NCBI RefSeq assembly: GCF_000004075.3 | Contig: NC_026658.2 | Span: 13,504,075 to 13,568,074, forward strand | Origin: Cucumis sativus | Lineage: Eukaryota; Streptophyta; Magnoliopsida; Cucurbitales; Cucurbitaceae | Direction: 5' to 3' | DNA length: 64,000 nt | Part shown: in pieces, positions 47,301 through 50,300 of the stretch | Layout of the letters: every line of letters begins with the position of its first letter | How positions within the stretch are numbered: the stretch's first letter is position 1 | Program-made: the position numbers and the translations under genes | Notes under the pieces: model-generated | The model's input: only the letters and a program-made list of their open reading frames with translations | Told to the model about the DNA's origin: nothing | Database searches by the model: none

Positions 47301-50300
47301 CTTGATATTAAGGCATAAGTCTCCTACAGAAGCTAGAACCGGTGAGAAAGCGAGGAAATAATTGAAGTGATAATTAATATTTTTTAAAACAGTGTTTTAT
47401 TTGAAGGAAAAATGACTAGTTGCCAGTGTTCAGTTTGGCACATGGTTCTTTTGTGGTTGCTATTTAGTCTGAAAATTCCCCTCTAGCGTTGATTGACAAC
47501 TTAACCATGATTTATACATTTTATTACAGGCTAGATGTCACGGGACACTAGGCTAGAATGTTGCTCAACTTTTGTGTCACTGAAGATGAATTGAATTTGG
47601 GATATACACCTAGTAATTAAAACTTGCACAAATAGGTAGAACTTGAGAGATAAATACTCAACTATTAAGCTTTTCATTTTAGCTTGATGCAAATAAGTAA
47701 GCGACATGCAATATTTTTTATGAATGTGCTTATTGTCCCGTACTTTCATTTTTATACATTTTACCAGGTGTTTGCTAGAACAGTGATTTGTCGTGATTTA
47801 GACGTGGCTACAAGAGTTGCTCGTACGGATGGTTTGGACTGTATAACTTTGGAGGGTGGGTGTTGAAGTTTACTTTGCCAATTTATGATTGCTTTACTAT
47901 GTATGTTTTTTTTTTCTTTTGACAAGTTTCCTTTGACTCTGTAATAGGTGACCAAGTTAGCAAAAAAGGTGGTATGACAGGGGGATTTTATGATCACCGA
48001 CGTTCAAAATTGAAGTTTATGAATATGATTATGCAAAATACCAAAGCCATTAACATAAAGGAAGATGACCTGGCAAAAGTTAGATCGGCACTTCAAGATA
48101 TCCTTTTTGTTGTTTCCTCCAATATGACACCTGTGAAAAGCAAGGACTTTAAATTCCATGGATCAAGTTCATTTTGATTGAGTCCAAATAACATAGTAAA
48201 AGAATGCATTGAATTCCATGGATTTTATTGGGTGTTTTGATGAAACCTTACTTTGTATCCTGTCACCAAGGGGGGGCGGGGTGAGATCCAATACTGCAGC
48301 TGCCTCATTATTTTGTCAAAATAATCTACTAGCCTAATAACACCTTGCTCACTATTAGATGAAAATTTATAGTTTTTGCTAATACAAATGTTCAATTCAG
48401 CTTTGGTACTTTATGCATCTCACTTTTACGGTTAGAATGAAAGACCATGATGTTTCTCCATTTGTACTTGTACTATGATTTCTCAAGTAAAAGTTTGTTC
48501 ACTACTGAAAAAGGAAGCTCTGTTGAAAGTAATGATTCAATGTCAATCTAAAGATTTTTGTATTTTCTTCATAATATAATTGGAGAAAGAAAAGTAGTTT
48601 TTTCATTTGTATCCTGATTGAATTCTCTAGTTTATCAATTTCTTCATAAGGATAAGAAACTCAATACTCATCGACATGAGCAGTAGTTTTTGATATTTAT
48701 GCATTGAACATTTTTTATAAGATATTGTGCAAAACCTATTAATTATTATCCTGAAAACATGTTCTTAATTATTAAAACTTGACACTCTGACTCCAGTTTG
48801 TGTGTTATTTGTTATACTACTTTTTTGGTTGCATATACGTCTTCCTTTACTTAATTTATCTTACAGATAGACAGAAAAATTACTGAACTTGTTTCAGAGC
48901 AGCAGAAACTTGATGCCAAGCTGGGTCATGATAAATCAGAATTGGAACAGCTTAAGCAGGACATTGCTAATGCTCAGAAGCAGAAACAATCAATTTCCAA
49001 GGCTCGTTTGAATAAGGTATCTTTAGGACTAGATCTAGGTAACTTATTAATCTACTATGGTTAGATAAAAAATATAGTTCTTCTGTTGATATTTCTTATT
49101 TTTGTATGCAGGAAAAATCACTTGCTGATGTTCGGAATCAGATTGACCAGCTTAGGGGTAATATGGCCATGAAACAAGCTGAAATGGGCACAGATCTTAT
49201 TGACCATTTGACACCAGAGGAAAAACATCTTCTATCACGACTGAACCCTGAAATATCAGAGCTGAAAGAGAAGCTTATTGCATGCAAGACAGAACGTATT
49301 GAGGTCTGTATATTGGTGCGTGCTTATATTGGTGTCATATTTCATTAACTCATATTTTTGTGCTTGTGTTTCTTTATTGGGTAGACTGAAACGAGGAAAG
49401 CTGAGCTTGAAACAAATTTAACAACTAACCTCAAGCGGCGGAAACAAGAGTTAGAAGCTATAATATCATCTGCAGAAGCAGACTCTTTACTGGGAGAAGC
49501 AGAATTAAAGAGACAGGAACTTAAAGATGCCAAATTATTAGTCGAGGAAGCAACTCAACAGCTCAAAAGTGAGACTTTTGATTTGGAAACTTCCAAATAT
49601 CTTGCAAATTCATTATGGTTTTTTCATTATTTATTTGTTTCTTAACTCTTTTATTTATTTATTTTTTAATTTTATTTTATAGCGATTTGAGGTTTCAATG
49701 TGATTTCTCAGGAGTTTCTGAAACTATGGACGACAAATCTAAGGAAATTAAAAAGATCAAAGATGAAAAGAATAAACTAAAGGTATCTCAATTTTACACA
49801 TTAACCACTGGTTGGTCTTGTTATCCTGGCTCCTTGGTTGATCCCCTTTCAATGCAGACTTTAGAGGACAACTACGAGAGGACACTTCAAGACGAAGCTA
49901 AAGAATTGGAGCAATTATTAAGCAAAAGAAGTGTGCTTCTTGCCAAAGAAGAAGAGCATACAAAGAAAATTACGGATCTGGGGCTACTGCCATCCGATGC
50001 ATTTGAAACGTAACCTTTTCTTTGAATTTGGATTTTGGTCATATTTTTAGTTGTCGACAAATTATTAATGGTCATAGTTGGTATTGTTTGAAGATGCTTT
50101 TCAGTTCTTTGATCTATTGTTTGTAGTTTATTTTCTTGGTGGATACCTGATCCTTGTTATGTTTTCTTTCCCACAATTGTTAGGTATAAGAGGAGAAACA
50201 TCAAAGAACTATATAAAATGTTGCATAGATGCAACGAACAACTGCAGCAATTCAGCCATGTTAATAAGAAAGCATTGGATCAGTATGTGAATTTCACAGA

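Follow-up and report, generated by a model that had tools for sequence, protein, structure and literature searches.

An AT-AC U12-type intron in cucumber SMC3 and an AT-donor reading at the aligned codon in vertebrate-like fragments

Does the essential cohesin gene SMC3 of cucumber contain an intron that starts with AT, ends with AC and is removed by the minor spliceosome, and how old would such an intron be? A sequence-only reading of the window, which is the whole stretch of 64,000 nucleotides of Cucumis sativus DNA analysed here, had placed a U12-type AT-AC intron inside SMC3 at 48098..48864. We mapped the gene onto the window (contig C4 of the 226.6 Mb genome searched), and compared the splice junction with SMC3 proteins and genomic fragments from plants and vertebrates. 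The best explanation overall, to which we assign a probability of roughly 96%, is that 48098-48864 is a genuine and probably ancient AT-AC U12-type intron that would be removed by the minor spliceosome.

The best full-length relative of the gene in the window is P0088, annotated as structural maintenance of chromosomes protein 3 isoform X1 from Cucumis sativus. P0088 could be translated exactly, exon by exon, from the window, with coding exons from 38343 to 52584 followed by a TAA stop, and this translation is the basis of the exon map:

38343..52587, plus strand: SMC3 coding span including the TAA stop, 28 coding exons, 1203 codons
47948..48097, plus strand: exon 18, ending in phase 1 after CTT CAA G (P0088 map)
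48098..48864, plus strand: intron 18 of 27, AT-AC, assigned to the U12 type, 767 nt, phase 1
48865..49016, plus strand: exon 19 (P0088 map)

Both the coordinates and the gene named by the sequence-only reading are thus exact in the P0088 map. In the genome search, this locus is the only site that matches at 80-100% over its exons. A second SMC3 copy was ruled out, the five matches elsewhere being either 29-45% identical or, in one case, a short 74% stretch. A custom gene finder, the first version of which over-called short exons, produced in a stricter version draft exons and a GT-AG alternative to the AT-AC intron.

The last base of exon 18 is 48097 and exon 19 opens at 48865 with AG ATA GAC, so that the intron is flanked by AAG^ATATCCTTTT at its 5' end and CTTAC^AG at its 3' end (the caret marks a splice junction). 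Joining 48097 to 48865 reproduces LQEIDRKI, the restored reading frame that had been proposed, and the same residues are present in P0088. The signals within the intron are the following:

48098..48107, plus strand: 5' splice site ATATCCTTTT, with AT at 48098-48099
48842..48850, plus strand: alternative branch-site candidate TTCCTTTAC, with A48849 15 nt before the intron end and one mismatch to TTCCTTRAY
48847..48855, plus strand: branch-site candidate TTACTTAAT, with A48854 10 nt before the intron end and one mismatch to TTCCTTRAY
48863..48864, plus strand: 3' splice site AC

The donor has no mismatch to RTATCCTTT, as expected from the claim of a U12-type donor. Scored as ATATCCTTT against RTATCCTT, it again has none and is the best among the 27 introns of the gene, introns 23 and 27 having one mismatch each. 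The branch-like element claimed at 10 bases before the terminal AC was also recovered, with a second candidate overlapping it, and the spacing of 10 or 15 nt from branch to 3' splice site lies inside the expected range of about 10-20 nt. A one-mismatch branch word is also found in the AG-ended introns 13, 14 and 25, 11 to 23 nt before their ends. AT-AC introns of the U2 type carry a U1-like, ATAAG-like donor; that class was ruled out for intron 18, the donor of which reads ATATCC. No nested element was detected in the intron, since a genome DNA search that skipped simple repeats returned intron 18 alone, and the window contains no Rfam matches.

Intron 27 is likely a second U12-type intron of SMC3, of the GT-AG subtype, as judged from its sequence:

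52250..52399, plus strand: intron 27, GTATCCTTCA...AG, 150 nt, phase 1

The sole difference of its donor GTATCCTTCA from RTATCCTTT is at the ninth base, and its branch candidate ATTCTTAAT, located 11 nt before the intron end, has two mismatches and is weaker than that of intron 18. Intron 23 (50010-50183) opens with GTAACCTTTT, one mismatch away from a U12 donor, and has no good branch element; the likeness is perhaps due to chance or to conversion of the intron. Intron 26 (51999-52074) starts with GC and is a GC-AG intron.

The donor motif alone is at chance level. In the genome, ATATCCTTT occurs 4894 times on both strands versus 4757 times for the reversed control, and [AG]TATCCTT combined with a branch-like element was no more frequent in the window than in a first-order simulation. 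Because these counts are near those of the control and the simulation, we discarded motif statistics by themselves as evidence. The window contains three plus-strand [AG]TATCCTT words, two of which are located exactly at SMC3 exon ends. It is the comparison across species that decides.

The sequence-only reading had suggested comparing the position and donor of the intron with SMC3 in other plants. Using exons 18 and 19 as the query, we found 87 proteins, mostly short frames that resemble calls on unspliced DNA. Such frames run from the exon into the intron, so their amino acids report the donor: G^ATATCCTT is translated as D-I-L and A^ATATCCTT as N-I-L. Among the 70 fragments that could be scored beyond the exon end, 68 read D/N-I-L (59 DIL, 9 NIL), in agreement with the proposed donor and position; the other two, P0001 (NLD) and P0003 (EVD), appear spliced or intronless. 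Two of the 87 end ahead of the junction, and 15 were left unscored by the pattern, including P0015, which reads DIL by eye. The D/N-I-L letters permit A(T/C)AT(A/C/T)(C/T)T and exclude GT. The models from Vitis vinifera (P0016) and Helianthus annuus (P0058) terminate in or just past the donor word. When genomic and canonically spliced sequences with 14 identical preceding residues are paired, DIL corresponds to E or D and NIL (P0023) to R, which fits phase 1.

The acceptor can be read in the same way. There are 14 plant fragments that cover only the 3' side, of which P0059 and P0060 look like a single locus, and the read-in residue is available in 12 of them (10 Q, 2 H). An AG end would read E or D; the last intron base in these plants is therefore C, like the final C of the cucumber intron. 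As far as can be read from these fragments, the donor is common to flowering plants.

Spliced proteins provide another view of the junction. The search yielded 3883 relatives, 120 of which were listed: 23 transcript-size proteins and 97 other models. The former derive from short contigs of at most 5,936 bases (source lgn or ena) that nevertheless contain one uninterrupted frame of roughly 1,200 codons, and we take them as transcripts, which the source records do not state. The spacing expected from AT-AC splicing is present in every one of the 23 listed transcript-size proteins and in 57 of the 97 other listed models. The 40 deviating models comprise 22 that are short by 7 residues, three that are short by 10 or 17, one that is short by a single residue and 14 with extra residues; the last group includes the second cucumber model, P0089, which reads into the intron, and the melon models P0092, P0093 and P0094. 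A Fisher test on canonical and deviant counts (23/0 versus 57/40) gives p = 4e-5 for rows that are related and not independent (19 of the 22 short models are from Malus). We read the deviant models as mostly errors of gene finders restricted to GT-AG introns. In Populus, P0197, P0201 and P0207 carry a 15-residue insertion at the junction, which could reflect genuine use of another acceptor located 45 nt upstream.

The models that lack 7 residues bear on an overlapping reading of the cucumber sequence:

48079..48080, plus strand: GT of an in-frame GT-AG alternative, intron 48079-48866

The pair 48079-48866 preserves the reading frame without introducing a stop, and its use would remove the 7 residues VRSALQE, which equal one coiled-coil heptad. 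Dual splicing could be envisaged, in which the minor spliceosome removes the intron as AT-AC in most transcripts and the major spliceosome uses the GT-AG pair in a minority, yielding an SMC3 that is exactly one heptad shorter. Besides the overlapping sites in cucumber, the occurrence of short models in four other plant genera (19 from Malus and one each from Pyrus, Rhamnella and Camellia) speaks for this possibility. However, all 22 short models in the listed set of 120 come from genome annotation and none is of transcript size, gene finders that accept only GT-AG would yield identical short models, and the cucumber GT (AAAA^GTTAGA) is, in our judgement, not strong-looking. We consider dual splicing unlikely.

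The age of the intron was addressed with a 103-residue segment of vertebrate SMC3 as the query, which found 196 proteins, 120 of them listed. Among the listed vertebrate-like fragments, 89 reach the exon end, and 88 of these give an AT-donor reading (52 HIL, 24 NIL, 10 NIF, 2 HIF), the single exception being P0208, which is spliced-like. A further 10 cover the 3' side, with R as the read-in residue in nine and W in one, and the other 21 span neither side of the junction. One vertebrate-like record bears a species name, P0303 from the fish Cirrhinus mrigala. HIL, NIL, NIF and HIF are compatible with [A/C]^ATAT(C/T)(C/T)T and, when read in phase 1, rule out GT. The base preceding the intron would be A for codon N and C for codon H, and either gives R after splicing. 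The read-in R fits C^GN, as for an AC end, and equally fits phase 0 with the whole codon in the next exon. Because it is compatible with both phases, the vertebrate phase is set solely by the donor reading, from which we infer phase 1.

The plant and vertebrate junctions coincide at the codon level, the vertebrate readings being taken from protein fragments alone. The split codon encodes R on the vertebrate side and E in cucumber, and in each case it lies 76 residues ahead of the conserved GTDL. Counted from GDQVS on the other side, it follows after 51 residues in vertebrates and 50 in cucumber, which places an indel of one residue ahead of the junction. When gap positions were scored on 46 unique plant sequences, the highest score (187.2) came from a gap 8 residues upstream of the junction; a gap located at the junction residue, or as far as 6 residues past it, reaches no more than 166.9, and the top 12 placements are all upstream. 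A HMMER alignment likewise puts the two junctions at the same codon.

Introns could have been gained independently at this one codon of SMC3 in plants and vertebrates: parallel insertion is possible, and there is a one-residue indel, which sits upstream of the junction. Against such a coincidence, the aligned codon and the rare AT donor are common to both sides and the phase is compatible. Minor introns are also rare and rarely gained, and we regard independent gain as quite improbable. The AT-donor intron at this codon thus probably predates the plant-animal split, as judged from the sequences compared, and it would probably have been present already in the common ancestor of both lineages. 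Finally, the suggestion that the real intron is a U2-type GT-AG intron at 48079-48866 with coincidental AT-AC ends, and that the protein has no VRSALQE, can draw on the open frame of that pair and on the 7-residue drop in 22 of the 97 listed annotated models, but is hardly credible given that the heptad is missing from none of the 23 transcript-size proteins, that cucumber P0088 and melon P0090, P0091 and P0096 retain the 7 residues, and that several Prunus proteins have I after the upstream K and hence no GT there.

In minor splicing, U11 and U12 bind the donor and the branch site, and U6atac then takes the donor. Above the Rfam cut-offs, the cucumber genome contains one U12, 12 U6atac-like and one U11 match. 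The 5' end of the U11 is predicted to form 8 pairs with the donor of intron 18 (-6.9 kcal/mol), the best of four donors tested. U4atac gave no match in the cucumber genome at the default threshold; a lax threshold, at which 11 of 14 prokaryote controls matched too, returned one candidate with 33 bits (cut-off 53) and an E value of 0.06:

L015:1501-1654 (G000:C3:11067945-11068098): candidate U4atac, below the Rfam cut-off

The 5' end of this candidate is predicted to pair with U6atac at -41.5 kcal/mol, compared with a minimum of -34.0 kcal/mol in 300 shuffles, and the candidate ends near CAATTTTTGG, an Sm-like site. On these two features, the only ones in its favour, it is a credible candidate and probably a U4atac gene. 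The zinc finger of U11-48K (PF05253) had no cucumber match, a weak result for a 25-residue model whose sole control match is archaeal. DIM1 (PF02966) matches at three genomic sites, and the divergent match on contig C7 could be DROL1. AT-AC introns require DROL1 in Arabidopsis, and AT-AN introns require CENATAC in humans, according to the available parts of two reports (PMC11039992, PMC8280824).

The sequence of intron 18, the public cucumber model P0088 and the conservation of the junction together support its assignment as an AT-AC intron of the U12 type, as the sequence-only reading had held. We propose that U11 and U12 recognise ATATCCTTTT and the near-consensus branch site, that U6atac takes over the donor from U11, and that the minor spliceosome would then ligate G48097 to A48865, which would restore LQEIDRKI in the part of the coiled coil that directly follows the hinge. 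With the intron retained, translation would end within it:

48175..48177, plus strand: first in-frame stop (TGA) upon retention of intron 18, at residue 721 of 1203

The C-terminal ATPase half would then be lost, so that efficient removal of intron 18 would be needed for cohesin, and the retained transcript would be a likely target of decay because nine introns lie downstream. We speculate that removal of intron 18 limits cohesin supply. As a long shot, an AT-AC intron inherited from the common ancestor may have persisted in both lineages because its removal, which would be slow and dependent on factors (DROL1 in plants; CENATAC/TXNL4B in animals), sets that supply, with some plants also making a heptad-less GT-AG product.

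An AT-donor intron common to both lineages in an essential cohesin gene offers one case that can be tested cleanly in vertebrates as well as in crop and model plants, and it connects defects of the minor spliceosome with chromosome cohesion in a checkable manner. Of the 120 listed sequences, 97 are annotated plant SMC3 models, and the fact that 40 of them are wrong or doubtful at this junction is a warning for pipelines that accept only GT-AG introns. Among the papers searched, no title or abstract start on a plant SMC3 intron was found, and supplementary tables or database lists may contain it. The kind of intron is known; its conservation is unusually deep, and the vertebrate AT-donor reading at the aligned codon is new here.

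Compared with known introns, intron 18 resembles U2-type GT-AG introns in that an overlapping in-frame GT-AG pair is present, and differs from them in that the 23 transcript-size relatives give no support for its use. With U12-type AT-AC introns, which make up 13-26% of the U12-type introns in four plants according to the available passages of one study (PMC7367187), it shares the AT..AC termini, the donor ATATCCTT, a phase other than 0 and a candidate branch element that is close to TTCCTTRAY and within 10-20 nt of the intron end; it is typical apart from the one-mismatch branch site with two overlapping candidates. A minor intron of human SMC3 is retained at 31.9% in Roifman patients versus 2.1%, as stated in passages of PMC4667643. 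That intron is in the same gene, which in vertebrate-like fragments has an AT-donor reading at the aligned codon, and we infer that the two are the same intron, its position being absent from those passages; the paper differs in that it concerns retention in Roifman syndrome. Few minor introns are common in position to human and Arabidopsis; their number is given as 20 (PMC2426677), 8 of 93 (PMC7367187) or 7 (PMC10639083) in the available parts of these studies, in which the degree of conservation is disputed between the first and the latter two. These introns are like the SMC3 intron in that position and class are common to an animal and a plant, and differ in that the counts are genome-wide.
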